The position numbers and the translations under genes are program-made. Below are positions 1 through 27,494 of a stretch of DNA of 64,000 nt, piece after piece. Numbering within the stretch: the first letter of the stretch is position 1; each line of letters begins with the position of its first letter. The DNA is taken from NCBI GenBank assembly GCA_029238935.1, contig JAQZBN010000002.1, positions 62,001-126,000 of the forward strand, in the 5' to 3' direction. This DNA comes from Herbinix sp. (GTDB taxonomy: Bacteria; Bacillota; Clostridia; Lachnospirales; Lachnospiraceae). The notes beneath the pieces are model-generated. The model saw nothing but the letters and a program-made list of their open reading frames with translations, was not told the origin of the DNA and did no database searches.

Positions 1-201
1 AATATCAAAGTCATGGATAGTCTCATATCCCTTGTTCATAGTCTTAACCTTACAGTTACTGCAGAAGGTATTGAGACTCTCGATCATGTTAAGAGGCTGC
101 AGAAAGGTGGATGCGATTATATTCAAGGTTATTATTTTAGTAAACCTTTGGATGCCGACCAAATACCTACGATCCACGATAAAATCTTCAACAACTATTA
201 A
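1..201 (+). CDS. EAL-domain c-di-GMP phosphodiesterase, C-terminal end (5' truncated)
   Basis: The frame is open from base 1, so only about 66 C-terminal residues are in the window. They carry the closing motifs of EAL domains: TAEGIET, a GCDYIQGYYFSKP block and a short tail. Enzymes of this family hydrolyse cyclic di-GMP to pGpG, but the catalytic EAL residues and any sensory domain lie outside. The gene converges on a diguanylate cyclase gene (stop at 230) and the two are separated only by a palindromic element. Making and degrading the same messenger from adjacent genes suggests a shared circuit; that link is inferred. Confidence 0.88.
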   Translation, partial: NIKVMDSLISLVHSLNLTVTAEGIETLDHVKRLQKGGCDYIQGYYFSKPLDADQIPTIHDKIFNNY

Positions 202-204
202 ATA

Positions 205-266
205 GGTGTCAGGCACCCTTAAGAAATTCTTACATTTGTAAGAATTTTGTAAGGGTGCCTGACACC
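205..266. repeat. Long palindromic repeat, copy 1 (GTGCCTGAC family)
   Basis: Near-perfect inverted repeat: GGTGTCAGGCACCCTTA on the left and TAAGGGTGCCTGACACC on the right, with inner arms that also pair (TTCTTACA/TGTAAGAA) around a loop of a few bases. It sits between convergent genes and could terminate both. The minus-strand GGEEF gene runs into it: its last codons and its TAA stop lie inside the element. Related copies are at about 3904, 44624 and 49766. Confidence 0.9.
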
Positions 267-970
267 TTATAACAATTTCGACCAGAATTTTTAGCCTCAT
301 ACAAGGCATGATCTGCATTTTTCAGTAAAACATCCATGAACTCTCCATCCATAGGACTTGCTGATGCAACACCGACAGATATCGTTATGATATTATATAT
401 TGTGGATCCCTTATGTTCGATCGACAAAGCAACAATATTAGATACCAGATCCTGCGCAATCAATGAGGCTCCTGGGATATCGGTATTCGGTAATAGTATT
501 ACAAATTCCTCTCCTCCAAACCGAGCGACAAGACTACCTTTTACAGTAACTGTTTTTTGTATCTCTTTGGCTACCGCCTTTAGGCATTCGTCTCCAAGCA
601 GATGGCCATAAGTATCATTATATTTTTTAAAATGATCGATATCTATCATAATCATGGAAAGAACTGATTTCTTACTAATAGCATGAAACCATTCTTTCTG
701 ATAGATCTCATTAAAATACCTTTTGTTATATAATTCTGTCAAAGAATCAGTCTGAGATGCTATCGTAAGCTTTTCCGAAACGTTTTTTAACTCCAGCTGC
801 ATAAGATCAGATAATTTTACTACTGTTTTCATATGCTTAAGGAGTTTTTTGTATTCTTCACACAGAACTTTATAAGTATTTAGGTCCTCTTCAGAAGCAA
901 ATTTGTTATGTTCAATTAATTCTTCCGCCTGTAAGATTACCTGTTCTTCTTTGAGATATATCTCCTGCAT
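230..970 (-). CDS. siaD: SiaD-like diguanylate cyclase (GGEEF)
   Basis: This 246-residue protein makes cyclic di-GMP from two GTP. The N-terminal 70-80 residues are charged and helical (likely coiled coil), followed by a GGDEF domain with DIDHFKKYND, the active-site motif RFGGEEF and a closing HALYEAKNSGRN block. The usual RxxD inhibitory site five residues before GGEEF reads KGSL, so product inhibition through the I-site is probably absent. It is the last gene of an operon with phosphatase, kinase and SiaC-type genes, the order of the Pseudomonas siaABCD operon, where SiaC binds and activates SiaD. The start has a good AGAAAGGG site. The last residues (about GTLTKFLQM) are encoded by palindromic repeat copy 1. 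Confidence 0.88.
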   Translation of the reverse strand: MQEIYLKEEQVILQAEELIEHNKFASEEDLNTYKVLCEEYKKLLKHMKTVVKLSDLMQLELKNVSEKLTIASQTDSLTELYNKRYFNEIYQKEWFHAISKKSVLSMIMIDIDHFKKYNDTYGHLLGDECLKAVAKEIQKTVTVKGSLVARFGGEEFVILLPNTDIPGASLIAQDLVSNIVALSIEHKGSTIYNIITISVGVASASPMDGEFMDVLLKNADHALYEAKNSGRNCYKVSGTLTKFLQM

Positions 971-988
971 ATTGTCCCTTTCTCATCA

Positions 989-1366
989 TTAACAGACTTC
1001 AATCTGAAATGAAAGATAACTAAGATCTTCTTTAAACTCTTCCCCGCATTCGATTGCTATATCATTATCTTCATCACAAATCCAATTAACGGTAATTTCT
1101 CTTCCTTTCATTGCATATAGATCCAGTAAATCAAATAGTGTCATAAACACTTTTGAAGTACTGCTGTTAAAGTACGTAATCTTAAAATCAATTTGAATTT
1201 CTTTTGTTTCTTCTTCTAAATATGACTTAATCCAGTCCAGAACTGGGGAATAAAATTTAGCGACATTTTCCGGAAAAGATTCTCCTTTGATCTGCAGCTT
1301 TCCGGTTAAAGCATCAAAAGCTATGGATGGAGTTGAATTGGTTTTTTCGATCATTAAATTTTGCAT
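989..1366 (-). CDS. siaC: SiaC-family regulatory phosphoprotein (DUF1987)
   Basis: A 125-residue cytosolic protein matching the SiaC/DUF1987 family in size, composition and context. Family knowledge: unphosphorylated SiaC binds and stimulates the diguanylate cyclase SiaD, while phosphorylation of a Ser/Thr by SiaB blocks this. Here the segment NSSTSK at residues 67-72 lies where that phospho-acceptor is expected; which Ser/Thr is used cannot be told from sequence. The gene starts 5 bases after the kinase stop behind AGGAAGGTAG, and siaD follows after 18 bases, so translation of the set is probably coupled. Confidence 0.85.
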   Translation of the reverse strand: MQNLMIEKTNSTPSIAFDALTGKLQIKGESFPENVAKFYSPVLDWIKSYLEEETKEIQIDFKITYFNSSTSKVFMTLFDLLDLYAMKGREITVNWICDEDNDIAIECGEEFKEDLSYLSFQIEVC

Positions 1367-1371
1367 GTTAT

Positions 1372-1929
1372 CTACCTTCCTACAACTACTTTAATACTAA
1401 AAAATGATAATTCATCATTCACAGGTTCAAAAGAGAATTGTAACGGCTCTGATGATCTTCTTGCCATTTCGATTAAACCGAGACCGGCACCTTTGCTTCC
1501 GGGTTCTCCTTCCATCCTCCTGCGCTCTTTGTATAATGCTTTCAACTCTTCTTTGCTTAATTTCTTAAGAAACTCCAGATTTGCAGATATTCGTTCCACA
1601 TCTTGTTTTAATATCCGATTCCCGCAATAGATAAAGTAATTTCCTGATTCTTCTCTACCGATCACAACAATCCCAATCCGTAGTTCCTTTTCATCTTCTT
1701 GATCTTTTTTAATTTTCTCAGCAGAATAATTTAGGACATTTTGTACTTGCTCGATGAAGATAGAAAATACCGTCATTGCCATAGCATTGCTCGTTTCTTC
1801 CAGCTCCATATTTTTACGTAGAGTATCTCCAACTCCTTCGATACTCGCTTGTGCAATAGCACCACAATAACACAGCATTATTTTGTTTACTTTTAAATCT
1901 TTATATAGTTGATACAGCGACATTTCCAT
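1372..1929 (-). CDS. siaB: SiaB-family protein kinase (GHKL-like fold)
   Basis: A 185-residue protein with a degenerate GHKL ATP-binding fold: an N-box-like NVLNYSAEKI around residues 72-81 and a glycine-rich KGAGLGLIEMAR lid near residues 145-156. Proteins of this family phosphorylate SiaC on Ser/Thr and thereby turn off its stimulation of the diguanylate cyclase. It lies between the PP2C phosphatase and SiaC genes, the same order as in Pseudomonas. The start ATG follows GGAGAGGAGC. An anti-sigma-factor kinase of SpoIIAB/RsbW type was considered, but no anti-sigma-antagonist gene is nearby and a DUF1987 gene is. Confidence 0.82.
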   Translation of the reverse strand: MEMSLYQLYKDLKVNKIMLCYCGAIAQASIEGVGDTLRKNMELEETSNAMAMTVFSIFIEQVQNVLNYSAEKIKKDQEDEKELRIGIVVIGREESGNYFIYCGNRILKQDVERISANLEFLKKLSKEELKALYKERRRMEGEPGSKGAGLGLIEMARRSSEPLQFSFEPVNDELSFFSIKVVVGR

Positions 1930-1954
1930 AAGAATGCTCCTCTCCTTCGTATCG

Positions 1955-3805
1955 TTATAATTGAAATCCTATCATTGTAATATCATCCCGTCTGACTTCT
2001 TCCCCTTTGTATTTTTTCCATTCCGATTGAATTCGATTTTTCTGTTCCTCTAATGGGTATGCGGCTACCGACTTAAGTAAAGAAACTAGTCTTCGTTTAC
2101 CATAGGGAAGTTTATGCTCTCCTCCTGGTTGATCTTTTACTCCATCTGATGCAATATAAAAAATATGGCTTTTCTTATATTCGATGATATGATTCTCAAA
2201 TTTTTTCTCTTTTTTTGTTACATTGCAATCGATTGTAAGGTTATTTCCTTTCACTTCAATGACATGCTCTCCTTCAAGAAAAAACATCGGTATATTTGCT
2301 CCTGCATATGTAACTGTTCCATTCTCAGACAGAAAGCAAACTGCTGCATCCAGGCCATCGGAGATAAAATTTTCTTCTCTGCTTATACCAAAAGACTGTT
2401 TCAACAAACGATCCAACTCATTCAAAATGACGGAAGGGTTATCATGGCATATTTCATCAGCAATGTGATCTAACATAGCATTAACCGCAGTTGTCATGAG
2501 GGCTCCTGGAACTCCGTGACCCGTACAGTCTCCTATAATGAGCAGTTTACCATCATGATAATTTCTCATCCAATAAAAATCCCCACCAACGGTTTCCTTG
2601 GGCTCATACAGAATAAAATGTTCCTTAAAATTATCCTGTAGTTCCGTCTGAGAAGGAAAAATCGTATGTTGAATCCGCTTTGCATAATCTAAACTATCCT
2701 GTATTTGTGTGTTTTTTTCCTGAAGTTCTTTGGTTCGGTTAGAAACCATCGACTCCAACTCCTGGTTTAGTAACAATGCTCGTTTATATGGATTCGCAAT
2801 TTGATTTGATACTATGTAAAAGGTAATTACCATTAACAGAATAATTATAATACAAGAAATCAATGTGTTAACTGCTACATCACCTAAAAATTTTACACTT
2901 TCCGATCTTGGAATTTGTATCATGATTTTCCAATCCGTATTTCTAATTTTCTTATAGGCAATATCGTATTTAGAATGATTTTGTGTCGTATATTCTTTGA
3001 TATAATATTCATGATCATTATTATTCACATTTATGATATCAGTATAGATTGTATTAGGCAGAATATCTTTCAGGTTTTTGTTCATGAAGTCTTTATTTTT
3101 CGATAGTTGAATGGTACCACTTTCATCTACAAGCCAGATATCATTTTTTACACTGCTGTTCTTATCATTTTGAATCAACTCATTGATGACTTGGGTCAGA
3201 TTCATGCCAAGGCCGGTGACTGCATTCGGAGTATTCACATCACCCATCATGGTATTAATAAAAACATAGGTATCCATAAGCTCCTTATTCATATCTATAT
3301 TGATTTCATATTCGTGTTTATTCTTTAAGAATTGAAAATACCATGCATCACTAGGATCTTCTTCTGATACCGTATCTAAGAGTTCAAAGGTATTGTCGTG
3401 ATATGTCCAGTAATGAAAGGTTTTATTACTCACCAGAAACACTGTATCATAACCTAATTTTTCAGACATCACCTTCATTTTAACACGAACCTGCTCTGAC
3501 AAAGCCTCATCCTGTTCTTTATTCTCAATCCAATGAAGCATCATGGGATCATTCGCCAATATGAGGGAAGCATCAACGGCTTTATCAATCTTACCTTCTA
3601 TAGCAGTGCTGATACTTTCTGCTAAAATCTTTAGATCATAGGTTTTTAATTTCGCAACAACTGCCTTGTTCATAATCATGATGCTCGTAAAGCTCATGAT
3701 TATTAAAGCGGATACAATAACAAAGCTACCAATCAGTATGACTTTTATTGAATTATTGTCAAACAGAGTACTGTTTTTCTTATCCGCAGTTCGCCTCAGA
3801 CCCAT
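1955..3805 (-). CDS. siaA: SiaA-like membrane sensor PP2C/SpoIIE-type phosphatase
   Basis: A membrane-bound Ser/Thr phosphatase of about 616 residues. Order: transmembrane helix near residues 18-43, extracellular dCache-like sensor to about 320, second helix (about 325-350), HAMP/linker with a coiled coil, then a SpoIIE/PP2C domain with metal-binding aspartates in GGDFYW, GDCTGHGVPGALM, ASDGVKD and RRDDIT. In the Sia pathway this phosphatase removes phosphate from SiaC, releasing it to activate the cyclase; the ligand sensed outside is unknown. ATG at 3805 is preferred over GTG at 3814 because AAGGGG then sits 8 bases upstream. First gene of the four-gene operon. Confidence 0.88.
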   Translation of the reverse strand: MGLRRTADKKNSTLFDNNSIKVILIGSFVIVSALIIMSFTSIMIMNKAVVAKLKTYDLKILAESISTAIEGKIDKAVDASLILANDPMMLHWIENKEQDEALSEQVRVKMKVMSEKLGYDTVFLVSNKTFHYWTYHDNTFELLDTVSEEDPSDAWYFQFLKNKHEYEINIDMNKELMDTYVFINTMMGDVNTPNAVTGLGMNLTQVINELIQNDKNSSVKNDIWLVDESGTIQLSKNKDFMNKNLKDILPNTIYTDIINVNNNDHEYYIKEYTTQNHSKYDIAYKKIRNTDWKIMIQIPRSESVKFLGDVAVNTLISCIIIILLMVITFYIVSNQIANPYKRALLLNQELESMVSNRTKELQEKNTQIQDSLDYAKRIQHTIFPSQTELQDNFKEHFILYEPKETVGGDFYWMRNYHDGKLLIIGDCTGHGVPGALMTTAVNAMLDHIADEICHDNPSVILNELDRLLKQSFGISREENFISDGLDAAVCFLSENGTVTYAGANIPMFFLEGEHVIEVKGNNLTIDCNVTKKEKKFENHIIEYKKSHIFYIASDGVKDQPGGEHKLPYGKRRLVSLLKSVAAYPLEEQKNRIQSEWKKYKGEEVRRDDITMIGFQL

Positions 3806-3867
3806 ATGATGCACCCCTTATCATTCGTATTAAGTTTTCCTTTACATGAATTGTCATTTTAAGGGTT

Positions 3868-3897
3868 ATTATATCATAGGATTTATAAATATGCAAA
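3868..3897 (-). promoter_or_regulatory. Predicted sigma-A promoter of the sia operon
   Basis: On the minus strand, TTTGCA (-35) and TATAAT (-10) are separated by 18 bases, about 60 bases before the siaA start. The -10 is perfect, the -35 is a 4/6 match. It would drive siaABCD. Confidence 0.55.
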
Positions 3898-3903
3898 AAG
3901 AAT

Positions 3904-3971
3904 AAAGGTGCCTGACCCCCTTACAAATTTCCTACGATCGTAAGAAAATCGTAAGGGGGTCAGGCACCTTT
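3904..3971. repeat. Long palindromic repeat, copy 2 (GTGCCTGAC family)
   Basis: Arms AAAGGTGCCTGACCCCCTTA and TAAGGGGGTCAGGCACCTTT, with inner arms around CGATCGTAAG forming the tip. It begins right at the stop codon of the minus-strand esterase gene and on that strand ends in a T-rich run, so it most likely terminates that transcript. Its inner arm (TTACAAA/TCGTAAG) resembles copy 1 rather than copies 3 and 4. Confidence 0.9.
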
Positions 3972-4748
3972 TTAAATCCACTTCAATACGGTTTGAATCT
4001 TTTCATCCCAGTATTTCCATTGGTGATCTCCAGGGGATTCCTCGTAGGTAAGATCAAAACCTAAGTTTTCAAGGTGAATTTTCATTTTCACATTCTGCTC
4101 ATAAAGAAAATCTTCGGTTCCACACCACATATAAATGCGCGGTAATGGTTTCCCAGACTCTTTTAGTTGAGTTGCAAGAGCGAATAAATCATTCTTACTA
4201 TCAGCTACCTGATCCAGAGGTCCGAATATATTACTCCAAAAATTTCTACCTTCTTCATCGCCGATATTCTTACAGATATCTCTTACATCCGCTGCACCGG
4301 ATAAAGATGCCACAGCACCAAAGGTCTCAGAAGCACCTAGCCCCATCTTTAATGCGCCGTAGCCTCCCATGGATAAACCAGCGACATAATTATCTTCTCT
4401 TTTATCGGATAAATTGTTGAAGAACGACCTACATATCTGAGGTAGTTCCTTCGATATAAAGGTCCAATACCGATGCCCATGAGCCATATCGGTATACCAG
4501 CCCAAATGGGTTGTCGGCATTACAACTGCAATTCCCATATCACTCACATAACGTTCTATCGAGGTTCTTCTTTGCCAAATGGTATGATCATCGCTCATTC
4601 CATGAAGTAAATAAAGAGTTGGGATTTTCCCATCCGCAACAGTTCCCTCCATGCCAATCTGTCCACTAGTCTTCTGAGGTAATATCACATCCATCTGCAT
4701 ACACATTCCCAATACATCTGAGAAAAAATTCACATGTAATAAAGCCAT
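3972..4748 (-). CDS. Alpha/beta-hydrolase esterase (esterase D / tributyrin esterase family)
   Basis: A 258-residue cytosolic serine esterase. Motifs: LYLLHG (oxyanion region), nucleophile Ser126 in GLSMGG, a probable acid Asp213 in GTEDFLYEQN and His242 in GDHQWKYWD, the full catalytic triad in family order. Relatives hydrolyse short-chain acyl esters, S-formylglutathione or acetylated sugars; substrate cannot be assigned. Given the many carbohydrate enzymes in the window, deacetylation of imported oligosaccharides is plausible but inferred. The 5' leader can pair with the ribosome binding site (see 4751-4845). The gene ends directly at palindrome copy 2. Confidence 0.85.
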   Translation of the reverse strand: MALLHVNFFSDVLGMCMQMDVILPQKTSGQIGMEGTVADGKIPTLYLLHGMSDDHTIWQRRTSIERYVSDMGIAVVMPTTHLGWYTDMAHGHRYWTFISKELPQICRSFFNNLSDKREDNYVAGLSMGGYGALKMGLGASETFGAVASLSGAADVRDICKNIGDEEGRNFWSNIFGPLDQVADSKNDLFALATQLKESGKPLPRIYMWCGTEDFLYEQNVKMKIHLENLGFDLTYEESPGDHQWKYWDEKIQTVLKWI

Positions 4749-4750
4749 TC

Positions 4751-4845
4751 TACATCCTCCTTAGATATCCAAAAATACTAATCTTATCCTACTCTTTTCG
4801 GACGACTTTATCAAGTAGAATCACTAAGAATATCAGGAGGATGTA
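4751..4845 (-). promoter_or_regulatory. 5' leader with anti-Shine-Dalgarno arm
   Basis: In the minus-strand transcript, TACATCCTCCT (complement of 4835-4845) is perfectly complementary over 11 bases to AGGAGGATGTA (complement of 4751-4761), which is the ribosome binding site of the esterase gene. Five more pairs (GATAT/ATATC) extend the helix after a two-base bulge. The loop is about 70 bases. If transcription starts upstream of 4845, the site would be masked until the helix opens. Confidence 0.55.
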
Positions 4846-4899
4846 ATACTATTTCTGCTATATTGAAACGTTAACACCCCATTGTCTTACCAAGTCATT

Positions 4900-5451
4900 T
4901 TACGCTTTATTTCCATCACATGCTGTAAAAATAGTTCCTACCCTGGTCTGTATATTATAGTATCCCGTATCCATTAATATCGTTGGTTTTACTTTGGCAG
5001 CATCCGGTCTTCCATTTTCGATGCAGTCCTCATTAATATACGTAGCGACAATTTCTCCAAGAAACATGGTAAAATCAAAAATCGGTATTGTCTGTATTAC
5101 TTTACACAAATAATTAACAGGGCATTCCTTTATCATTGGAGCGACTCCTGCCTCATCGTAAAAACTTTCAAATACATCCGATTTATCATTAGTCTTCCCC
5201 GATACCATTCCACAATAATCAGTTTTTTCAACCAGTTCAGAGGAGGGTATGTTCACAGAAAAATATCCGTTCTCTTGAATTCCTTTCGTTGTATGATGGG
5301 TATTTTTTAATGAAATATATAATACCGGCTTTTGGCTTACCACACCGTAAGCTCCTATCGTTGTATAGTTAGGCTTCCCGTTTACACAAGCTCCAGCTAG
5401 TACCGTAATGTATGGTCCATAGGGAATATTTGCAATCTTCTTTTTGTTCAT
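4900..5451 (-). CDS. Flavin reductase-like FMN-binding protein
   Basis: A 183-residue protein of the flavin reductase-like domain family (split-barrel FMN binding). It shows the typical opening (IPYGPYITVLAGACVNGKPNYTTIGAYG) in pieces, then YISLKNTHHTTKGI, the ENGYFSVNIPS strand and a late HFxxGEIV-like segment (MFLGEIVATYINED). Many clostridial members are of unknown electron partner and serve as flavoredoxins or NAD(P)H:flavin oxidoreductases. It stands alone, divergent from a small membrane protein gene. The ribosome binding site is weak (GGCAGG close to the ATG). Function beyond FMN binding is not assigned. Confidence 0.82.
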   Translation of the reverse strand: MNKKKIANIPYGPYITVLAGACVNGKPNYTTIGAYGVVSQKPVLYISLKNTHHTTKGIQENGYFSVNIPSSELVEKTDYCGMVSGKTNDKSDVFESFYDEAGVAPMIKECPVNYLCKVIQTIPIFDFTMFLGEIVATYINEDCIENGRPDAAKVKPTILMDTGYYNIQTRVGTIFTACDGNKA

Positions 5452-7719: not shown

Positions 7720-10700
7720 CTAACCTGCAATTTCCTTGTCTGTAATTTCATAAAAATCCGCCTTTTCAAATTCCTGTATTGATATCCTGTTCTTATTTGG
7801 ATTAGCAAACACAAAGGTTTTATCTACATTATCTACATAATTTTGAATTTTATCATTTGTAGCACTGATGATTGCTTGGAAACCCAACGTACGAATTAAG
7901 CCGATACAGCTGCCAACCTTTTCAGCATCCATTTTAGAAAATGCTTCATCAAGAACGACCAGTCTTGGAGTAGGTTTTCTTCTGATGCTTGACTTAAGAT
8001 TAATTCGATACACTTGCGCAAAACTTGCCAGTAAAGCAACATATAATGGATTTTGTCCTTCACCACCGGAATTCTTCGTAAGCATTTTGCTTAGTCGCAT
8101 TGGTGGCATACCTTCCACCAGCTGTTCCATATCAAAGGAAAGATAAGTTCGATAATCCGAGTATTTTTCCATATTTTCTCTTGCTTCTTCTAAGGTTTTT
8201 GCATCGCAGTTTTCCGGTGGTATAAAGAGATCAATTAGTTCATTAATCAAATCACTGTAATCCTTCTCATGCTGCATTGTAAAAAAATCCATCTGATTCT
8301 CTATCTTACCCATCAGTTGATGAGGGTTGATTTCCAGATTTTCATCCATGAACATATCATAGAATTTACCATCTTCCCCTTTATTCTTGGTTATTATGAA
8401 TCTATATTTATCTTTACCAAAATCAAGCTGAGCCAAAATCCGGTTTAAGTCATCCTTCTGCTGCATAACTTCCTTAATCGAGTCACGAATTTTATAGATA
8501 AAATCAGTTTTAAAATGATACACCGCTTGTTTCGCCTGTTCATTTGCTTTCTCTGTAAATTCAACCAGTTTATCGCTGCTTAAGGTAGTAAGAAGCTGGT
8601 CATATTCCCCATTATCTCTTCGGGTTAGGGATAATCCCCGGAAAGAATACAGTTTCCGGTATTGTTCTCTTAAACTAATCAGTTTATCAAATTCTTCGGT
8701 ACTTTTTGATTCACTGGCTTGCTTTCGGTTATATAAAATTCCTCGCAGCATTTCCGGTTTAGTGATTTCTGTTTCCTTTAAAAATGCTTGATATGACTTA
8801 TCCCTCTGTTCCTCCAGTTGAAAGATATTCTTCTTATGAATCAATTCTTCATTTGATAAAAGATAATCTCCTCTTAACCGCTCTAAATCATTTTTCTTTG
8901 TATTTAAGTTTATACTAGCAGATTCTTTTTGATTACTTTTAGCAGAAATTGTTTTTTCGAGTAAATGTTGCTGAGCTCTCCATTCATCTATATTCTTTTC
9001 CTTTATTTCATTTATTTTTTGAATATAGCGTTGTTTCTCTTCTTCCCTTGCTTTGATTTCATTGATTTCTGCTAATTGCTTTACATAAGAATCCGTATCA
9101 GAAGAGAGGGTCTCATATCCCAAGATCTGGTCTAGGACCTTAAGACGCTCATCAAGCGGGGTCTTAAGAAGCTGCAACTCTGTTACATCCCGTTCCAGCT
9201 GTGTAAGTCTTCTTTGAACTGCATTGTGTCCGATATAAGCATATTCTGTATAATTTCGGGGATTCATATGTTGTAGCTTATATCCTTGATATAGAACACA
9301 GTCTGAAGTAATGCCACTTTTGTTCTCCCGTAATTCCTCAATCGTATTGCATTTTATCACAGCACCCAGGAGAGAATCTACATAAGCTCTTGCATAATCC
9401 ACCGAGGTTTCGATTTCGTCTGCCAGTGCGTTTACTAGCTTAGGTTTTGCATCCTTAAGAACCCGTTCCGTATCAATCACTGCTACATTATAATACTTCT
9501 TTGGATCTAATCCCTGATATAGTTCCATTGCTTGTTTTACATAAGTCGGGGGAACCATAAGACTCAATTTGTTGTTTCCCATATAACCTTCTACCGCATT
9601 GAGCCAATTGATATCCTTCACTTCCAGAATGTCTGCTAATATATCAACCGGTATTTCCCTTTGATACCTACTCATAAGCTCATCAGCAATCGTCTGTTTT
9701 GCCTCCAGCAAATAAGCTGGATATGCTTTTTGTCCGTCTCTTAAGGTTTTAACCTGTTTCATCATCTCGGAGAGCTTACTTTTCATCTCATTGATGTTTC
9801 CTAATAATTCCAGCTTTTCTTTCTCTATTTCTGTATGTACCTGTGCAATATTTGCTTTCAACAGCTCTATTTCTTCCTGTGTAATCTGATATTCCATGAA
9901 ATTATGTATACTTTCTTTCACGGAAAGCTCTAAAAGATCTGTTTCCAACCACCCTCTTAATCTGTTTACCATTTGATCAAAGCTTGACTTATTCCGGTAT
10001 AATAGCTCTAATACCTGATTAAGAGACTTAAGTTCTGCTTCCAAATGATCGTACCCACTATTCTGAATGGAGATTAACACTTCATCCCTCTTATGTTGAA
10101 GATTTATGATATCCTGCTCTAAAGTACTAACTACCTCTTCTAATTGCTTCATATCCTCTTGATACGCTTTTTGCTGGATCAAAAGTTTATCTAATTTGGC
10201 TTCCAAGGTCTCGATATCAAGCAGATCCAGGTTATATTGATATTGCATCATTTGATCCTGATAGGTACGATAGATTTCGTATTGTTTTTTCATAATCGTT
10301 AGTGAATGAATTTCATTTCTGGTATCCTCCAGCCTACGTTTTAGCCTGGTATACTGAGCAACACTATCCTGCATATCTTCCATATGGATATCGTTCTCTG
10401 TACATATATAATTTTTAACAAAATCCTCTAACTTAATATCCATTTTAAAAGGGATTGCCTTTTTAAATAACGCTGGGAAATGGATCGGATGAAGACCGCC
10501 AAAATAATTCCCGTATAATTCATTTCTGAATTTTTCATTGGTCCTGGTGAAAAAATAATCCTCTTTGGTAAAATGATCCTTCATATATTCTTTCAGTTCA
10601 TGAATGGAAAGAACCTTGTCCCCATCCCGGTAACAATTTGGTAGCAAACTGCCGGTATGCCAAAAAAACAGTCGGTTTACCTCGTTGACTGTTACATCCA

Positions 10701-11064
10701 CATCAAAGATAACACCGATACTTTGTATAAACTCAGTTTCGGTATCCTGAAACTCTAATACAATCGATGTAGTAAAATTTTTATTTCTTAGATAATTGAT
10801 CTCATTATTCTCCTGAACTACTTTCATACCCCTGAGGTATTCGATCAATGTTCGGTCTGAATCATCCTTCGCCGCTTTGTTAAAAAAGCCTCGCCCATTA
10901 CTGTCCGCATACAAAACAATTTGCAAAGCATCCAACACAGTTGATTTACCACTTCCGGAATGCCCTGTGAAGAAATTGATGTCATCATGGAAGGTTAAAA
11001 GCTTTTCACTGATGTAGTGCCAATTATTCAGACACATCTTCTTCAAGACTTGATATCTGTCCAT
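7720..11064 (-). CDS. jetC: JetC/MksB SMC-like ATPase of a Wadjet-type complex
   Basis: A large SMC/MukB-like ATPase of about 1114 residues. It has an N-terminal Walker A GHSGSGKST (residues 34-42), long heptad-rich arms broken by a hinge-like region around 480-560, and a C-terminal head with the ABC signature SGGEGQ and Walker B LVVLDEAFSKMD. In Wadjet/MksBEF complexes this subunit extrudes DNA loops. ATG 11064 is preferred over 11073: GAGGAGG abuts the first ATG but lies 9 bases from the second. The gene overlaps the end of jetB, so expression is coupled. RecF- or SbcC-type repair ATPases are excluded by the jetA/jetB neighbours. Confidence 0.9.
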   Translation of the reverse strand: MDRYQVLKKMCLNNWHYISEKLLTFHDDINFFTGHSGSGKSTVLDALQIVLYADSNGRGFFNKAAKDDSDRTLIEYLRGMKVVQENNEINYLRNKNFTTSIVLEFQDTETEFIQSIGVIFDVDVTVNEVNRLFFWHTGSLLPNCYRDGDKVLSIHELKEYMKDHFTKEDYFFTRTNEKFRNELYGNYFGGLHPIHFPALFKKAIPFKMDIKLEDFVKNYICTENDIHMEDMQDSVAQYTRLKRRLEDTRNEIHSLTIMKKQYEIYRTYQDQMMQYQYNLDLLDIETLEAKLDKLLIQQKAYQEDMKQLEEVVSTLEQDIINLQHKRDEVLISIQNSGYDHLEAELKSLNQVLELLYRNKSSFDQMVNRLRGWLETDLLELSVKESIHNFMEYQITQEEIELLKANIAQVHTEIEKEKLELLGNINEMKSKLSEMMKQVKTLRDGQKAYPAYLLEAKQTIADELMSRYQREIPVDILADILEVKDINWLNAVEGYMGNNKLSLMVPPTYVKQAMELYQGLDPKKYYNVAVIDTERVLKDAKPKLVNALADEIETSVDYARAYVDSLLGAVIKCNTIEELRENKSGITSDCVLYQGYKLQHMNPRNYTEYAYIGHNAVQRRLTQLERDVTELQLLKTPLDERLKVLDQILGYETLSSDTDSYVKQLAEINEIKAREEEKQRYIQKINEIKEKNIDEWRAQQHLLEKTISAKSNQKESASINLNTKKNDLERLRGDYLLSNEELIHKKNIFQLEEQRDKSYQAFLKETEITKPEMLRGILYNRKQASESKSTEEFDKLISLREQYRKLYSFRGLSLTRRDNGEYDQLLTTLSSDKLVEFTEKANEQAKQAVYHFKTDFIYKIRDSIKEVMQQKDDLNRILAQLDFGKDKYRFIITKNKGEDGKFYDMFMDENLEINPHQLMGKIENQMDFFTMQHEKDYSDLINELIDLFIPPENCDAKTLEEARENMEKYSDYRTYLSFDMEQLVEGMPPMRLSKMLTKNSGGEGQNPLYVALLASFAQVYRINLKSSIRRKPTPRLVVLDEAFSKMDAEKVGSCIGLIRTLGFQAIISATNDKIQNYVDNVDKTFVFANPNKNRISIQEFEKADFYEITDKEIAG

Positions 11065-11671
11065 CTGCTGCATCCTCCTCTTCTTCTTGATATTGTTCCA
11101 TCATGGCTGCAATGGATTGGCCATCCAATAAAAGATTGACCGTTGGATAGATCATCAATCTGGTATCACCGTCAATATATGCCATCTCATCTACGATTTC
11201 AATGATCTGGTATTTTTTTAGAACAGTAATTGTTTTTTTCACCTCAGTAATAGAGATCGACTTATTATTCCATAAGCGAAATATCTGAATTTTATCATAA
11301 ATTTCATTTAAGGTAGTAAATACATGAACGGAATTAGATGCCGTGTTCATCTTCTCTTCAAAAATTAATTTAAGTAGAAGGATAAAGATTGTCGTTAGTT
11401 TACTTAATTTATCCCCTTGTAAATTACCGGTCCGTAAATATATAATTCCATATTGCCGATTCTCAACTAACTGAATATCTGCAATCCCAAAATACTCCTG
11501 TAAGAAGTCAAGATGCCTCTCACAGATACGATAATTTTTATTTGGTAAATGCCGCTCTGCCTTTGCGTCGTACTTTTTTTCCAACAAAAAGGTCTGATGA
11601 AATAATGTCTTTATGACTTCCGTCAGATCTTCTTTTTCCTCATCTAATAAATCTTTGTAATATTGAAACAT
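11024..11671 (-). CDS. jetB: JetB/MksE-like kite protein (DUF4194)
   Basis: A 215-residue DUF4194 protein, the winged-helix kite subunit that bridges the kleisin JetA and the SMC heads of JetC. The central part (ICERHLDFLQEYFGI, then RTGNLQGDKLSKLTTIFILLL) is typical. The tail is very acidic (EEEEDAADGQ). ATG 11671 is chosen because AGGAAAGGA lies a few bases upstream; an open frame continues 28 codons further up but is basic, has no ribosome binding site and overlaps jetA. The stop lies 40-50 bases inside jetC. Confidence 0.85.
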   Translation of the reverse strand: MFQYYKDLLDEEKEDLTEVIKTLFHQTFLLEKKYDAKAERHLPNKNYRICERHLDFLQEYFGIADIQLVENRQYGIIYLRTGNLQGDKLSKLTTIFILLLKLIFEEKMNTASNSVHVFTTLNEIYDKIQIFRLWNNKSISITEVKKTITVLKKYQIIEIVDEMAYIDGDTRLMIYPTVNLLLDGQSIAAMMEQYQEEEEDAADGQISSLEEDVSE

Positions 11672-11693: not shown

Positions 11694-13109
11694 CTAATCC
11701 AGATCCTCTGTCGGGGTATTCGCTTCCTTCTTTTGTAACGAATTCTTTTTCTCAAATATCAACCGTGGGTAGGTATACTTCCCATTTGTGATCTGTTCGT
11801 CCTCCTGTATCACTGCATAAAATGGACTTTTCTTTCGCACACTGTAGTCATAAGCCAGAATAAGAAGTTCAAATTCTTCATCGGAATTGATTGGATGCAG
11901 ACTAGTATCGTATTTATTTTCCTCCATCCCAAGCAGTATAAATTCTTCTATCTGATCTTGGTTATATCGATTATGATTACGATTAATTTTTAGAATGTCT
12001 TCTTTTGACATCTCCACTTCTATTTCATTCTCGATCTCCACAGTATCCTCAAACACCTTTCGTCTTCCTCTCTTTTTATAGAAGGAATCCGGTGATATTA
12101 ACGTATCGTCATTGATTTGGATCAGGTTTGCAACTTTAGTTAATAAATGAGGGGTTTTATTTCCTGAAAGTAAGTTTAACAATGCAACCACATTTCCCTG
12201 TGTACTGTCCTCATTACTAAGTAGATATTCCAAACGGCTCACAGTTGCACGAACATACTTACTATGCTCTGTATCGATATGGGAGATTCTTTTTTCCATA
12301 TTGTTAATTCCCCGTTCAATATGGTAAATAATGTCCAAGAACTCTGCTTCCAGCTCATCTTTCTTCTTACCTTCCCCTGCGATCTTCTTGAGCAGGATTT
12401 GGAGGCGGCTCTCATCCTCTTTCATCGACCGTAATAATTGCTTTATGTCATTTTTATAGATATAAAAATTATCACTGGTCTTTAAGATACTATATTTTTT
12501 GTTAACTATCGTTTCTACATAAACCTCCAGGTGCTCGTTCAGAAGTTCTTCGTAATTTTCCTTCTCCAGTAAAGCACCGAAAAACTGATCCATATTATGA
12601 AGCATCTCCTGTAACGCACGATTTAGCCTCGTTGTATTTATCATTGCTGCTTTTAAAAGCTCCAGGCCCGCCTTATTATCATGATAAAAGGAGTATATAT
12701 TGGTATAAACATTCTGAATATAAAGATCGGTATCATTGGAATCCGGATTACTGAGCTTTTGAAAGACTTCGATAAATACGGATGCATAATCAGGAATTAC
12801 AATATTGGTTTTAAAAGAGCTATAATCCTCAACCTTCTTCAACCAGGTAAAACGAATCAGACGATTAATAATCTTTGTCGCCATGGGTTCCATACTGTCC
12901 ATGTCTGATTCGTCATCGTCAACTGAGATATCAACGATACGGTCAGAAAAATATTCCGATATCATCTGAATACAGGTTTCCTTGGTCAAAAAATAGTCAT
13001 TATATAAATACTCATCATAGAGTACCATCAGTGCTTCCATATAAATATAACGGTTTCTGGAATAGAATAAACTCCAAAACTGTTGGGGTAATTTTAAAAT
13101 TTCTTTCAT
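11694..13109 (-). CDS. jetA: JetA/MksF-like kleisin of a Wadjet-type complex
   Basis: A 471-residue, mostly helical protein matching the clostridial JetA family (DUF5716 type) by start (ILKLPQQFWSLFYSRNRYIYMEALMVLY in pieces), length and position before DUF4194 and SMC-like genes. Kleisins bridge the SMC heads. A coiled-coil stretch lies around residues 215-300. It is the first gene of the operon. Wadjet systems restrict small circular DNA such as plasmids by loop extrusion followed by cutting; the cutting subunit JetD is not found in this window. The start has AAGGAGAAC about 11 bases upstream. Confidence 0.83.
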   Translation of the reverse strand: MKEILKLPQQFWSLFYSRNRYIYMEALMVLYDEYLYNDYFLTKETCIQMISEYFSDRIVDISVDDDESDMDSMEPMATKIINRLIRFTWLKKVEDYSSFKTNIVIPDYASVFIEVFQKLSNPDSNDTDLYIQNVYTNIYSFYHDNKAGLELLKAAMINTTRLNRALQEMLHNMDQFFGALLEKENYEELLNEHLEVYVETIVNKKYSILKTSDNFYIYKNDIKQLLRSMKEDESRLQILLKKIAGEGKKKDELEAEFLDIIYHIERGINNMEKRISHIDTEHSKYVRATVSRLEYLLSNEDSTQGNVVALLNLLSGNKTPHLLTKVANLIQINDDTLISPDSFYKKRGRRKVFEDTVEIENEIEVEMSKEDILKINRNHNRYNQDQIEEFILLGMEENKYDTSLHPINSDEEFELLILAYDYSVRKKSPFYAVIQEDEQITNGKYTYPRLIFEKKNSLQKKEANTPTEDLD

Positions 13110-22737: not shown

Positions 22738-22785
22738 TGTTGTAAATCTTATAAAAGGGGGGATATTTAAATTGGAATGATTGGC

Positions 22786-23826
22786 TTATTTTATTTTAAT
22801 TACTGCTTTCACTACATCCTTTGCATTATTTACTACAAAGTCAAAAGCTTCTTTCGTTTGTTCAAAATCAAATTCATGACTTACGATATCCTTTACGTTA
22901 ATGGTACCGCTGGCAATCGCATTAATCGCTACCGGATATAAATTACGGTATCTGAATATTGTCTTAACTTCGCCTTCCTTACCCATTAACTTCATAAAAT
23001 TGAATTCAACTTCGTCCTTCGGTGTCATACCAACAAGTACGATTGTGCCTCCACGTTTCACAACATCAGCAGTTTGCTTTACAGTAACTTCTGCACCTGC
23101 TGTGTCAATTACTACATGCGCTCCACTGCCTTCGGTAATTTCATCTATTCTTGTGAGAACATTCTCTTCTCTCGCGTTAATTGTATGGGTAGCACCAAGT
23201 CTTTTTGCAGTTTCTAAACGATTCTGTAATACATCTACTACAACTATTTTTGCTGCACCTCTCGCTTTGCTGGCAAGTAAGGTTACCAAACCAATACAAC
23301 CGGTACCAAAGATTACTACGGTGTCACCTAATTTTACATTTCCTTTGCTGGTTGCATGGAGTCCTACTGCTAAGGGTTCCACTAAAGCACCTTCTAGATT
23401 AGATACATTCTCCGGTAATTTGAAGCACATATCTTCCGGATGAGCTACATAATTAGAAAATACTCCATGAAACGGAGGGGTAGCAAAGAATTCTACATCC
23501 GGACAAAGGTTATATTGACCAGATTTGCAAAATTCACATTTACCGCAAGTTTTACCAGGTTCTAGAGCAACTCTGTCACCGACAGCAAGGGTTTTTACAT
23601 CCTTACCAACTTGAACGACTTCACCGGCACATTCATGTCCAAGAACAAAGTCACCATTTACAATAAAATCACCAATTCTTCCATGTTGGTAGTAATGAAC
23701 GTCTGAACCGCAGATACCAACAACATCTATTTTAATTAATACGTCCTTATCATTTACAACAGGCATATCAATTTCTTTCCAAATCATTTCGTTTGTTCCA
23801 TGCATAAATACTGCTTTATTTACCAT
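22786..23826 (-). CDS. Zinc-dependent medium-chain dehydrogenase (sorbitol/xylitol dehydrogenase type)
   Basis: A 346-residue MDR-superfamily enzyme. Catalytic zinc ligands appear in GICGSDVHYY and GHECAGEVV, structural zinc cysteines in CGKCEFCKSGQYNLC, and a Rossmann GTGCIGLV. The HYYQHGRIGDF and PPFHGVFSNYV segments are those of sorbitol/L-iditol/xylitol dehydrogenases, which oxidise polyols to ketoses with NAD. It is the last gene of the operon with a ribose-type ABC transporter, so the imported substrate is probably a sugar alcohol or pentose; which one is not decided by sequence. AAAGGAGG precedes the ATG. Confidence 0.87.
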   Translation of the reverse strand: MVNKAVFMHGTNEMIWKEIDMPVVNDKDVLIKIDVVGICGSDVHYYQHGRIGDFIVNGDFVLGHECAGEVVQVGKDVKTLAVGDRVALEPGKTCGKCEFCKSGQYNLCPDVEFFATPPFHGVFSNYVAHPEDMCFKLPENVSNLEGALVEPLAVGLHATSKGNVKLGDTVVIFGTGCIGLVTLLASKARGAAKIVVVDVLQNRLETAKRLGATHTINAREENVLTRIDEITEGSGAHVVIDTAGAEVTVKQTADVVKRGGTIVLVGMTPKDEVEFNFMKLMGKEGEVKTIFRYRNLYPVAINAIASGTINVKDIVSHEFDFEQTKEAFDFVVNNAKDVVKAVIKIK

Positions 23827-23849
23827 TACGAAAATCCTCCTTTTTCATT

Positions 23850-23882
23850 ATGGTACGTGGAATGTTACATCCCACGTACCAT
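23850..23882 (-). promoter_or_regulatory. Intercistronic hairpin between binding-protein and dehydrogenase genes
   Basis: ATGGTACGTGG and CCACGTACCAT form an 11-base perfect stem with an 11-base loop. No U run follows on the minus strand; the dehydrogenase ribosome binding site comes next. It looks like an mRNA-stabilising or processing hairpin at the 3' end of the binding-protein message rather than a full terminator. Confidence 0.65.
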
Positions 23883-23906
23883 GTTGTAATATTTAAACTT
23901 TATTAA

Positions 23907-24938
23907 TTACTTAATCGCTCCGGATTTCTTGTGCATTTCAATATATTGATCTACGTTATCTTTTGTAATTAAAGGACAATCAATATCGATATCAATCTGT
24001 GTTTCTTCACCGGTTAATAATTTATTTGCTGTATCCATTAATGCTGTAGCAAGATCATAAGCACTCTGTAAGCTTGTAGAAGTCATCAAGCCATCTTTGA
24101 TTAAGAGAACTGCTTCTGCCGTACCGTCAACACCATACGCTAAAATATTATCATAATTTGGATCATCTTTTACAACTTCTAATCCACCTGCTGCCATGTT
24201 ATCATTCATCGCAATGATTGCATCAATCTTATCGTTTGCCTGAACCCATGTTTCCATATAGTTCATAGCTTCATCTTTATTCCAGTTTGCAATTTCCTGT
24301 CCAACGATTTTTACGTCAGGTCTTTTTGCGAAGAATTCTTTCTCCCAGCTTTGTTGTCTCTGATCTGCATGGAAGTTTCCTGGAGGGCCTAAGAGTACTA
24401 CTACGTTCGCATTTTGAGGAACTTGCTCTACTGCTAAATCAGCATTCACTTTTGCCTGTAAGTATGGATCTGCATCGACTGAAGATGCACCTTCAATACC
24501 ACTAATACGAGCATTTGTTGTAATAGTAACAATACCTGCTTGAACTGCTTTTTCTACATAAGGTCTCTGAGCTTCACCATTGTTTGGTTGTACAATGATT
24601 GCATCATACTTGTTTGTAATAGCATTTTCAATTAAGGAGTTTTCAGTATCATCGGAAGCCTGACCATCAAATACATCTAATTTTATGTTAGGATATTTTG
24701 CTGCTTCTTCGATCACTGCATTTGCTAACCAAGCTGCAAAGGAGTCTGCCTGAGCTCTTGCGATATATGCCACTCTGTATTCCTTAGCTTCAGTGTCATC
24801 CCCAGTGTTATTGTCTGGTGCTTGAGTTGCTGTCGTATTGTTTCCTGTGTCATTACCGTTATCTTCTTTGGTTGCACAACCTGTAAAAACTGAAGATAAT
24901 AATGTAACTACCATTGCTAAAACCAACAATTTCTTCAT
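23907..24938 (-). CDS. Sugar ABC transporter substrate-binding lipoprotein (ribose/xylose type)
   Basis: A 343-residue lipoprotein: signal peptide with lipobox FTGC (Cys at residue 21), an Asn/Thr/Asp-rich linker (about residues 25-52), then a type I periplasmic-binding fold of the Peripla_BP_4 family (AYIARAQADSFAAWLANAV, DAIIVQPNNGEAQRP, AIIAMNDNMAAGGLE, YGVDGTAEAVLLIKDG). Proteins of this family bind pentoses, hexoses, inositol or autoinducer-2. It is followed by the dehydrogenase gene and preceded by permease and ATPase genes. Confidence 0.9.
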   Translation of the reverse strand: MKKLLVLAMVVTLLSSVFTGCATKEDNGNDTGNNTTATQAPDNNTGDDTEAKEYRVAYIARAQADSFAAWLANAVIEEAAKYPNIKLDVFDGQASDDTENSLIENAITNKYDAIIVQPNNGEAQRPYVEKAVQAGIVTITTNARISGIEGASSVDADPYLQAKVNADLAVEQVPQNANVVVLLGPPGNFHADQRQQSWEKEFFAKRPDVKIVGQEIANWNKDEAMNYMETWVQANDKIDAIIAMNDNMAAGGLEVVKDDPNYDNILAYGVDGTAEAVLLIKDGLMTSTSLQSAYDLATALMDTANKLLTGEETQIDIDIDCPLITKDNVDQYIEMHKKSGAIK

Positions 24939-25018
24939 ATTTTTCCTCCTAATAATTTATTCTAAATAGAGACAATCTCTATATTAGACATTTGAAATGT
25001 TACTTAGATGTTGATAAA

Positions 25019-25978
25019 TTAACGCTTTCTGTTTTTTGCCCAGATATCATACATAACTGCAAGAGCGATGATACCACCACGGACGATTTGCTGAAGGTAA
25101 GAATTTACACCTACTAGAACCATTATGTTGTCCAAAAATCCTACAATAAATGCACCTGCTAAAGTTCCTGATGCAGTTCCAATACCACCGGAGAAGCTTG
25201 TACCACCGATAACCGCTGCGGTAAGTGCTTTAAACTCATATCCGGTTGCACCATTTGGCATACCACCGTTTACACGGGACATAAAGAGAACGCCTGCGAT
25301 ACCAACCAAGATACCATTAATGATGAATGCTCTCATTTTAATTCTATTAACGTTAATACCGGATGCATTGGCTGCTTCTTCATTACCACCGATCGCATAA
25401 ATCGAACGTCCGAACACGGTATGCTTTAATAAATACCAGGTAATAATTAAGGTAACTACAAGGAAAATCATTGGAGTAGGTATTCCTAGAATTTTACCTT
25501 GACCAAATTTTACATAATCACCAATCTGGTAAATATTCTGACCGTTGGTGTAAAGAAGAGCTGCACCTCTTGCCATTGCCATCATTGCTAAGGTAGCAAT
25601 GAATGGAGGAGTCTTATATTTGGTTACCATTAATCCGTTTAGAATATTACATGCAACACCAACTAAGATTGCAACGATAAAGGATATGGTTAATGAACCG
25701 GTTGCCTGATAGGAAGATATTGAGAGAACACCTGCCAAAGCCAATACAGAGGCAGAAGATAAGTCAAGCATACCAGAGATAATCAATATCGTTTGACCGA
25801 ATGCCAGAATAGTTCCAACGGAAATCTGTGTTGAGATATTCTGTAAATTGGCTACCGATACAAAGTTCTTATTCGCTAGCCAGCAAACAATAAATAAGGC
25901 TATTAAAACGAAATAAATACTGTATTTGCTTTTAATATTTGCTATCATGTTACTTTTTGAATTCGTTTTGGTATTCAA
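25019..25978 (-). CDS. Sugar ABC transporter permease (RbsC type)
   Basis: A 319-residue BPD_transp_2 family permease with 8-10 helices. Family marks: NLQNISTQISVGTILAFGQT in pieces, GMLDLSSASVLALAG, the ATPase-contact loop FGRSIYAIGGNEEAANASGI and a late GGTSFSGGIGTASGTLAGA. It forms the channel with the ATPase encoded one base upstream (stop and start are almost adjacent at 25978-25980). Confidence 0.92.
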   Translation of the reverse strand: MNTKTNSKSNMIANIKSKYSIYFVLIALFIVCWLANKNFVSVANLQNISTQISVGTILAFGQTILIISGMLDLSSASVLALAGVLSISSYQATGSLTISFIVAILVGVACNILNGLMVTKYKTPPFIATLAMMAMARGAALLYTNGQNIYQIGDYVKFGQGKILGIPTPMIFLVVTLIITWYLLKHTVFGRSIYAIGGNEEAANASGINVNRIKMRAFIINGILVGIAGVLFMSRVNGGMPNGATGYEFKALTAAVIGGTSFSGGIGTASGTLAGAFIVGFLDNIMVLVGVNSYLQQIVRGGIIALAVMYDIWAKNRKR

Positions 25979-25979
25979 T

Positions 25980-27494
25980 TTATTTCACCTCTTCTTGGGA
26001 TTTTGTACCGGTTGCAAAGGCCATAATGTTTTCCTGTGAAAATTCATCTCTGGTTAACATCCCGGTCACTTTTCCTTTCGCCATAACATAAATTCTGTCA
26101 CACATACCGATAAGTTCCGGTAATTCGGAGGAAACCATGACCAAAGCCTTCTTTTGTTTTGCAAGCTCAGACATTAATTTGTAAATTTCATATTTTGCAC
26201 CAACATCGATACCACGGGTTGGCTCATCCACAATCAGAATGTCCGGATTTGTTACCATCCATTTTGCCAAAATAACCTTTTGTTGATTACCACCACTTAA
26301 GGATTCGATTTTTGTTTCATAATTGGGTGCCTTTACATTCATTTTTCCACAGTATTCATCGATGGATTTATTCTCCTCTTCTTTGTGTAATCTACCGTGA
26401 TGAATGAATTTATTCAGACTTGCCAGGGATACATTTTCTTTGATGCTTCGAACAGGAATAATACCAAATCTACGTCTGTCCTCGGAGAGCATAACCATCT
26501 TTCGATCAATACTGTTTTTTACATTCTTAATCGTTGCTTTTTTGTCTTTGATGGTTATTTCGCCTGAATGATATGGATCCAGACCAAAGATACTTCTCAT
26601 TACCTCTGTTCTTCCCGCTCCCATCAGTCCTGCAAAGCCTACGATTTCGCCTTCTTTCACATGGAAGTTAACATTTTCAAACTTTCCTTTTTGTGAAAGT
26701 CCCTCCACCTTTAAGATTACCTCTCCGATTGGAAGATTTTCTTTTGGATAATTATTTTCTAACTTACGACCTACCATCTGAGAAATTACTGTTTCTAAAT
26801 CATATTGTTTGATCGGTCTTGAGTCTACTACAGTACCATCACGGAAAACCGTAATTTCATCTGCAATTCTAAATATTTCATCCATTTTATGTGAAATGTA
26901 AATGATACTAGCGCCACGCTGTCTTAATTCATTGATTTTTTGGAATAAAACCTCAACTTCTTTATTGGTGATCGCAGAAGTAGGCTCATCCATGATGATG
27001 ATATCGGATTGATAGGAAATCGCTTTTAAGATTTCTAGCATCTGTATATCAGATACAGACAAATCTTTTAACCTCGTCTCAGGGTCATAGGATAAGTTCT
27101 CCTTCTTCAAAAGCTCAATCGTCCGTTTTCTTATTTCCTTCCAATCTACCTTATTTAACTTATCTTTCGGCCAATTACCTACAAATAAGCTTTCCTCAAT
27201 TGTCATTTCCGGCATATAATTCAGTTCCTGAAAAATCATTGAGATACCTAAGCTTCTGGCTTGGATGGGATTTTTAATCTCCACCGCTTTCTCATCGATC
27301 ATAATCTCTCCGGAGTCCGGTTTATGAATGCCGTTAATAACTTTCATCAATGTAGATTTTCCTGCACCATTTTCACCGCAAAGCACATGAACGGTTCCTT
27401 TTTTTACTGCAAAATTCACATTGTTCAATGCCTTTACTCCGGGAAAGGATTTATTAATATTTGACACTCTTAATTTAATATCTGTATTTATCAT
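25980..27494 (-). CDS. Sugar ABC transporter ATPase with duplicated ABC domains (RbsA type)
   Basis: A 504-residue fused ATPase. First half: Walker A GENGAGKST, signature LSVSDIQMLEI, Walker B IIIMDEPTSAI. Second half: GLMGAGRTE in place of a canonical Walker A, signature LSGGNQQKVILAKWM, Walker B ILIVDEPTRGID. The degenerate second Walker A is normal for RbsA/XylG/MglA. It is the first gene of the ABC-dehydrogenase operon; the region upstream carries repeated TGGATTA motifs. Confidence 0.93.
   Translation of the reverse strand: MINTDIKLRVSNINKSFPGVKALNNVNFAVKKGTVHVLCGENGAGKSTLMKVINGIHKPDSGEIMIDEKAVEIKNPIQARSLGISMIFQELNYMPEMTIEESLFVGNWPKDKLNKVDWKEIRKRTIELLKKENLSYDPETRLKDLSVSDIQMLEILKAISYQSDIIIMDEPTSAITNKEVEVLFQKINELRQRGASIIYISHKMDEIFRIADEITVFRDGTVVDSRPIKQYDLETVISQMVGRKLENNYPKENLPIGEVILKVEGLSQKGKFENVNFHVKEGEIVGFAGLMGAGRTEVMRSIFGLDPYHSGEITIKDKKATIKNVKNSIDRKMVMLSEDRRRFGIIPVRSIKENVSLASLNKFIHHGRLHKEEENKSIDEYCGKMNVKAPNYETKIESLSGGNQQKVILAKWMVTNPDILIVDEPTRGIDVGAKYEIYKLMSELAKQKKALVMVSSELPELIGMCDRIYVMAKGKVTGMLTRDEFSQENIMAFATGTKSQEEVK

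Follow-up and report, generated by a model that had tools for sequence, protein, structure and literature searches.

A SiaABCD-type operon in Herbinix sp. with a single docking motif in its diguanylate cyclase

Gene organization of the locus

We analyzed a 64,000-nucleotide (nt) stretch of a Herbinix sp. genome (contig JAQZBN010000002.1, positions 62,001 to 126,000; hereafter the window, on which nucleotide positions are given unless a locus is named). Its first 4 kb contain four intact open reading frames (ORFs) on the minus strand, 3814..230 (-), arranged in the order siaA-siaB-siaC-siaD and separated by gaps of 25 nt (A/B), 5 nt (B/C), and 18 nt (C/D). The siaA-like gene (1955..3814, -) encodes a membrane phosphatase of 619 amino acid residues (aa) when read from GTG, with a dCache_1 sensor, a C-terminal PP2C/SpoIIE domain, and two transmembrane segments recognized by eye. 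The siaB-like gene (1372..1929, -) encodes a kinase of 185 aa with the N-box IEQVQN and the G-box GAGLGL. The siaC-like gene (989..1366, -) encodes a regulatory phosphoprotein of 125 aa, whose predicted acceptor Ser68 lies within YFNSSTSK. The siaD-like gene (230..970, -) encodes a diguanylate cyclase of 246 aa with a stalk helix, the motif LSDLMQ, and the active site GGEEF (residues 152-156). An earlier reading of the DNA letters by a model (the original prediction) had begun siaA at ATG 3805. Because AAGGGG is located 8 nt upstream of this codon, we also judge ATG 3805 to be the likelier start over GTG 3814.

Family assignment and predicted structures

In Pfam, SiaA matched SpoIIE (66 bits, E = 5e-18) and dCache_1 (47 bits, 3e-12), SiaB matched DUF6272 (E = 4.5e-47), SiaC matched the DUF1987 family PF09345 (151 bits, 1.8e-44, vs a gathering score of 24.5), and SiaD matched GGDEF (165 bits, 1.6e-48). 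A Sia model was the best or second-best NCBIfam match of each of the four proteins, and SiaB passed the cut-off of the SiaB_fam_kinase model (NF038262) with 201 bits against 85. The best sequence matches in PDB were the Pseudomonas aeruginosa SiaA PP2C domain (6k4e; phmmer, E = 8e-49) for SiaA, chain 6kko_A (E = 2e-28) for SiaB, and 6kko_C (E = 8e-23) for SiaC; for SiaD, WspR was best and SiaD 7e6g was found at 1e-22. The PP2C center of SiaA retains GGDF, GDCTGHG, SDG, and RDD, including the metal residues, and the E-N pair of the SiaB N-box is also kept. The AlphaFold 2 model of SiaC (predicted local distance difference test, pLDDT, 93.9), with a helix spanning residues 68-86, was superposed by Foldseek on the SiaC chain 6kko_D with a query TM-score (TMq) of 0.94 and a root mean square deviation of 1.0.

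These results confirm the four-gene Sia observation, and judged by their scores, matches this strong are not due to chance. The original prediction had described a membrane PP2C phosphatase, a GHKL-type kinase, a DUF1987 phosphoprotein, and a small diguanylate cyclase in the gene order and with the domains of Pseudomonas SiaABCD, and the Pfam, NCBIfam, PDB, and AlphaFold/Foldseek results concur. According to the available text on P. aeruginosa SiaABCD (6k4e, 6kko, 6kkp, 6k4f, 7e6g; PMC8457831, PMC7647112), the two systems share the A-B-C-D order, the PP2C, SiaB, DUF1987, and GGDEF families, an acceptor at the start of helix alpha-2, the S, D, and Q docking residues of the stalk, and the GGEEF site. 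They differ in the acceptor (Ser68 vs Thr68), in the number of docking motifs (one vs two), in the absence of RxxD from the window protein, and in its missed equivalog cut-offs.

The general Rsb/Spo architecture consists of a PP2C phosphatase, a GHKL-like kinase, and a STAS-like antagonist. The first three proteins of the operon resemble this trio, and the locus might be read as an anti-sigma partner switch of SpoIIAB/RsbW type that is followed by a cyclase unrelated to it. The original prediction had named a kinase closer to SpoIIAB than to SiaB, and a SiaC homologue without the DUF1987 fold, among the outcomes that would refute it; neither was borne out. The kinase was assigned to the SiaB family and the third protein to SiaC, the SpoIIAB, RsbW, and STAS families were all without a match at E ≤ 0.001 in Pfam and NCBIfam, and the SiaC model had eight Foldseek matches at E ≤ 0.001, all of them SiaC entries. 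We consider the anti-sigma reading extremely unlikely, and it was dropped on the family scores.

Acceptor site and docking stalk

At least 219 relatives were confirmed in one scan of genome contigs, and the best 80 were kept for locus comparisons (loci designated L). Ser68 of the window SiaC, at the start of helix alpha-2, is the counterpart of Pseudomonas Thr68. Position 68 was Ser or Thr in all 83 rows compared (54 Thr and 29 Ser; 82 distinct loci, since L006 and L066 coincide). When groups were chosen by hand, Thr was found in 23/23 Pseudomonas-type rows vs Ser in 18/18 rows of the group of the window, the window included. Around the acceptor, SiaC Y65, N67, S69, and K72 were invariant in 22 aligned rows.

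In P. aeruginosa, SiaC Thr68 is reported to lie between the stalk helices and to bond with SiaD S82 and Q86, and the motif recurs 32 residues upstream (S50, Q54), giving rise to a 2:4 complex (available text of PMC8457831). The AlphaFold 2 model of the window SiaD (pLDDT 91.5) has a short helix at 6-20 and a single long stalk helix at 27-73 before the GGDEF domain. D55 and Q58 on this stalk, which correspond to Pseudomonas D83 and to Q86, the residue in contact with Thr68, were invariant in 17 aligned cyclases, an alignment that omitted the five SiaD-type cyclases of L006, L032, L053, L056, and L057, which keep S-D without Q. We then counted docking motifs by scanning the region ahead of the GGDEF domain with the strict pattern [ILVM][SAG]DxxQ. 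Two copies exactly 32 residues apart were found in 16 of 21 Pseudomonas-type cyclases; the remaining five have one intact copy and a second that, by eye, is degenerate and has lost the Q. Among the 24 other cyclases, 17 have one copy and seven have none. Two of these seven (L052 and L063) are longer GGDEF proteins that are not SiaD-type, and the others are the five S-D proteins named above. The window SiaD carries a single motif, LSDLMQ, at 53-58. Because each stalk has one docking motif, a SiaD:SiaC stoichiometry of 2:2 instead of 2:4 is predicted.

Absence of the I-site from SiaD

The I-site register was counted back from GGEEF to residues 143-146, which read VKGS in the window SiaD; RxxD is absent. 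The original prediction was therefore right about the loss of RxxD, and its replacement letters, KGSL, were one residue off. By alignments, the place of Pseudomonas R201 seems to hold Asp174. In P. aeruginosa SiaD, changing R201 to Ala is reported to abolish feedback (available text of PMC8457831). Among the near relatives, L010-L014 have RPRD in this register, unlike the window, and L009 (HPED) and L015 (DNDA) also deviate from RxxD. Since five near relatives retain RPRD, the loss is local. In five Marinomonas loci, the register reads GELG, GDLG, or GDSG, and on these sequences Marinomonas has lost RxxD separately from the window lineage.

Docking stalk on other outputs

A hidden Markov model (HMM) of the stalk was trained on 42 short cyclases and applied with a threshold of E ≤ 0.01. 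It matched 84 of 2,869 ORFs (79 once duplicate locus copies were removed). Apart from a few longer stretches, the loci end ~6 kb from siaC in either direction, which makes the distance from siaC a poor control. The stalk was present in 64 of 79 GGDEF ORFs, including the 42 used for training. Among the 15 stalkless GGDEF ORFs, one is a sia-linked long GGDEF protein (L070); the other 14, five of them from Marinomonas, are not a sia output.

The outputs of the 83 loci were a short cyclase in 44 (43 distinct), a long GGDEF protein in 21, a histidine-kinase-type protein in 11, and a nucleotide cyclase in one; none was found in six. A GYP motif was detected by pattern in 17 of the 21 long GGDEF outputs and not in the other four, and Pfam found HD_5 in both of the long outputs searched (L036 and L005, the latter coinciding with L040). 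HisKA and HATPase_c were found in 10/11 histidine-kinase-type outputs; in the remaining one (L059), HATPase_c is accompanied by a weak Hpt match. By the stalk HMM, the stalk is joined to an adenylate/guanylate cyclase with a receiver (L075:6651-8636), a PAS-histidine kinase (L078:3222-4697), a histidine kinase (L027:6375-7400), and a hybrid kinase beside the L006 cyclase (L006:10737-12473). Because the long GGDEF proteins and kinases lay outside the training set, these matches support a docking helix common to cyclases, long GGDEF proteins, and kinases. The Bacillota loci with a long GGDEF output (e.g., Petroclostridium L005/L040 and Sporomusa ovata L036) share with the window the SiaA, SiaB, and SiaC families and the same docking stalk. 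They differ from it in having an output of mostly 532-562 aa, mostly B-C-A order, and a Thr acceptor in 18 of 21.

These results suggest that SiaABC may be a portable switch. We give about even chances to a broader proposal, in which SiaA-B-C would be a portable Ser/Thr phospho-switch whose output is set by the stalk-bearing enzyme (diguanylate cyclase, GGDEF-HD-GYP protein, histidine kinase, or nucleotide cyclase), and the window would represent a separate single-site, Ser-acceptor subfamily with a 2:2 complex and little or no product inhibition. The general idea that DUF1987 modulates its neighbors is already in print, as DUF1987 was called widespread and was suggested to be a modulator of adjacent proteins (available text of PMC8457831). 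Neither the one-docking-site group nor stalk swaps were met in the available texts of the literature searched on SiaABCD and DUF1987. The SiaABCD work found in the literature all concerns P. aeruginosa, and among the matches listed, none of the titles or abstracts dealt with SiaABCD in Bacillota. With one site, a Ser acceptor, and a lost I-site, the window and its relatives offer a natural simpler design for finding out which elements of the mechanism in P. aeruginosa are indispensable, such as whether two SiaC per chain are required for the pentamer-to-dimer switch. The linked loci also suggest control of histidine kinases and HD-GYP enzymes by SiaC. If this is true, DUF1987 would be a predictable input module in many Bacillota.

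Sensor domain of SiaA

The dCache domain of the window SiaA aligned with the purine receptor McpH (E = 4e-9), and we compared it with the dCache_1PU motif, Y-[RK]-W-F-[DN], counting positions by eye. W, F, and N are kept, as in the dCache_1PU sensors described in the available text of PMC11245519, and a Tyr is located near the position of the motif Tyr. In contrast to those sensors, the window protein has Asp at the [RK] position (Arg129/Lys). Because Asp replaces Arg/Lys, the protein departs from the published five-residue motif, and on this ground purine sensing by the window SiaA was set aside. In McpH, the R129A exchange is reported to weaken adenine binding 16-fold, which was called the most modest effect (available text of PMC11245519).

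The full motif, Y-K-W-F-N (counted by eye), was found in the SiaA of Sporomusa ovata (L036:6398-8239), which aligned with McpH at 3e-18 and is the sole NF038263 match at E ≤ 1e-20 in that genome. It is probably the S. ovata Ser/Thr phosphatase R14, reported as purine-binding in the available text of PMC11245519. A similar link to a reported purine sensor of Paenibacillus cymbidii is not claimed, as the two SiaA proteins read both lack the reported motif letters. The main text of PMC11245519 mentions none of SiaA, SiaB, SiaC, SiaABCD, and DUF1987.

Model for the control of c-di-GMP synthesis

We regard it as very probable that the operon encodes a SiaABCD-type partner switch controlling the synthesis of cyclic diguanosine monophosphate (c-di-GMP). 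By analogy with P. aeruginosa, SiaB would phosphorylate SiaC at Ser68, and the membrane phosphatase SiaA would clear the phosphate once the ligand state of its external dCache domain is appropriate. In its unphosphorylated form, SiaC would then dock through helices alpha-2 and alpha-3 onto the one LSDLMQ site that each SiaD stalk offers and keep two SiaD chains as a productive dimer, turning c-di-GMP synthesis on. As the RxxD I-site is gone, product inhibition should be weak and the switch should be set mainly by phosphorylation; the original prediction had suggested that the cyclase might answer to SiaC only. What the analysis of the window itself showed are the genes present and their order, their families and folds, the conserved residues at catalytic and docking sites, and the loss of RxxD.

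Several results weigh against this interpretation. None of the four proteins reached the NCBIfam equivalog cut-offs (SiaA 287/700, SiaB 148/225, SiaC 118/150, and SiaD 166/290 bits), and for this reason we assign the system to the SiaABCD type without counting it among the Pseudomonas orthologues. The window SiaD lacks the second docking motif and has HNKFAS 32 residues upstream of LSDLMQ. In the Foldseek search with the SiaD model, WspR came first and SiaD 7e6g ninth, so that the model is closer to WspR and other cyclases. In addition, all five Marinomonas loci (L060, L071, L073, L077, and L080) have a further GGDEF gene, which encodes a stalkless protein of 986-996 aa and precedes siaA by 13-29 nt in the same orientation; the stalk is therefore not on every GGDEF protein beside sia genes.

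Phosphorylation, binding, and the direction of control are inferred from P. aeruginosa. As the acceptor, the number of sites, and the cyclase group differ, the direction is carried over solely by analogy. A SiaABC switch of different sign or wiring, in which the active cyclase is favored by phospho-SiaC or in which SiaC holds back a cyclase that would be active without it, would fit the change of Thr to Ser, the one docking site in place of two, and the distinct group of the cyclase. Nevertheless, SiaC Y65, N67, and S69 and the D and Q of SiaD are unchanged at the contact between acceptor and stalk, and with the same contact residues a phosphate should clash as it does in P. aeruginosa. We therefore consider a change of sign or wiring unlikely. 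Taken together, the SiaABCD interpretation of the original prediction is supported and largely right; the system is of a known kind with a differing docking layout.

Phylogeny and distribution

A tree of SiaB and SiaC was built from the 78 rows having both by a quick method with supports from the Shimodaira-Hasegawa-like approximate likelihood ratio test (SH-aLRT) and no bootstrap. Among the best 80 relatives, the window paired with L009 (Megamonas sp. UBA1796; SH-aLRT 99) inside an eight-row Bacillota/Thermotogae group (SH-aLRT 86); the Pseudomonadota rows and the Bacillota B-C-A loci fell elsewhere in the tree. Six of the seven other rows of this group (L009-L011 and L013-L015) are arranged A-B-C-D; in L012, the order is B-C-D, and siaA was not located in the stretch examined. 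SiaC of the window was 62% identical to that of L009, L010, and L011. More widely, the Bacillota, Thermotogae, and deltaproteobacterial loci (L009-L016 and others) resemble the window in having mostly A-B-C-D order, a Ser acceptor, and a single docking motif.

SiaC was present in 1/34 genomes of the genus, 2/299 sampled genomes of the family, and 2/391 sampled genomes of the class, with the genome of the window counted in each; the other family genome (G507) carries two loci, both belonging to a distant type. This patchy presence suggests horizontal spread of the sia locus. No SiaC relative was confirmed in viral contigs. The four congener stretches read contained no empty site, having in common with the window only the esterase, the EAL gene, or a distant 4.5-kb block, and they neither show nor exclude an insertion at this spot. 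The genome is rated at 8.08% contamination. A contaminating contig was rejected as an explanation, since the esterase adjoining the operon has 68-82% identical relatives in 9 of 33 other congeners (the ninth, G416, a partial match) and window positions 22758-27320 have 79% DNA identity to one congener, by which the contig fits the genus.

The same patchiness, the lost RxxD, and a SiaD C-terminal tail encoded by a repeat-type hairpin would suit a passenger locus that arrived recently and is now silent or degenerating in the Herbinix lineage. Because none of the four ORFs is disrupted and every residue that we checked in the PP2C, N-box/G-box, GGEEF, and docking motifs is kept, we consider such a passenger very unlikely.

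Flanking genes and hairpins

The 3' end of a gene convergent with siaD (1..201, +) belongs to a dCache-GGDEF-EAL protein of 891 aa that begins upstream of the window (ORF L008:9526-12201). Pfam found EAL (222 bits), GGDEF (139 bits), and dCache_1 (57 bits) in it. The original prediction had correctly placed an EAL gene converging on the operon; its phosphodiesterase label needs to be limited, since with a GGDEF domain of its own the protein need not be a pure phosphodiesterase. It is a possible counter-enzyme outside the operon. Four c-di-GMP-I riboswitches were detected over the cut-off in the genome, all on other contigs, and c-di-GMP therefore probably has readers in Herbinix sp. In the window, Rfam gave nothing at gathering scores.

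A long hairpin with a GGTGTCAGGCACC core (inverted repeat I5, 204..267, arms 94% paired) is located between the convergent siaD and GGDEF-EAL genes and is a candidate bidirectional terminator. A second of the same family (inverted repeat I4, 3904..3971, arms 91% paired), between the esterase stop and siaA, is a candidate terminator of the esterase gene upstream of the operon. The family, with a GGTGCCTGAC core, is thus found at both operon ends, and its members look like terminators. The consensus terminator scan of window 1-5000 did not list these two hairpins. Promoter and terminator scans of the same region gave no excess over shuffled sequence, and for that reason no promoter is named. Genome-wide, GGTGCCTGACNCC sites numbered 33 vs 0 for the reversed pattern, and among the literature matches listed for the hairpin core, no title concerned bacterial repeats.

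The window contains four long hairpins with the GGTGCCTGAC core (204-267, 3904-3971, 44624-44698, and 49766-49837; arms 91-100% paired), all of them located at or overlapping the 3' end of a gene on the minus strand. The last residues and the stop codon of siaD are encoded within the first of them (230-267). This hairpin-coded tail (residues 240-246) has a pLDDT below 50, and most aligned relatives are without such a tail. The other two hairpins flank a gene for a 1,601-aa protein (44698-49503, -) with a partial PADLOC match of CARF/LolE type (87 bits). Upstream of the sia locus, JetC (1,357 bits; 7720-11073, -) and JetA (552 bits; 11694-13109, -) of a Wadjet type I defense system were detected.

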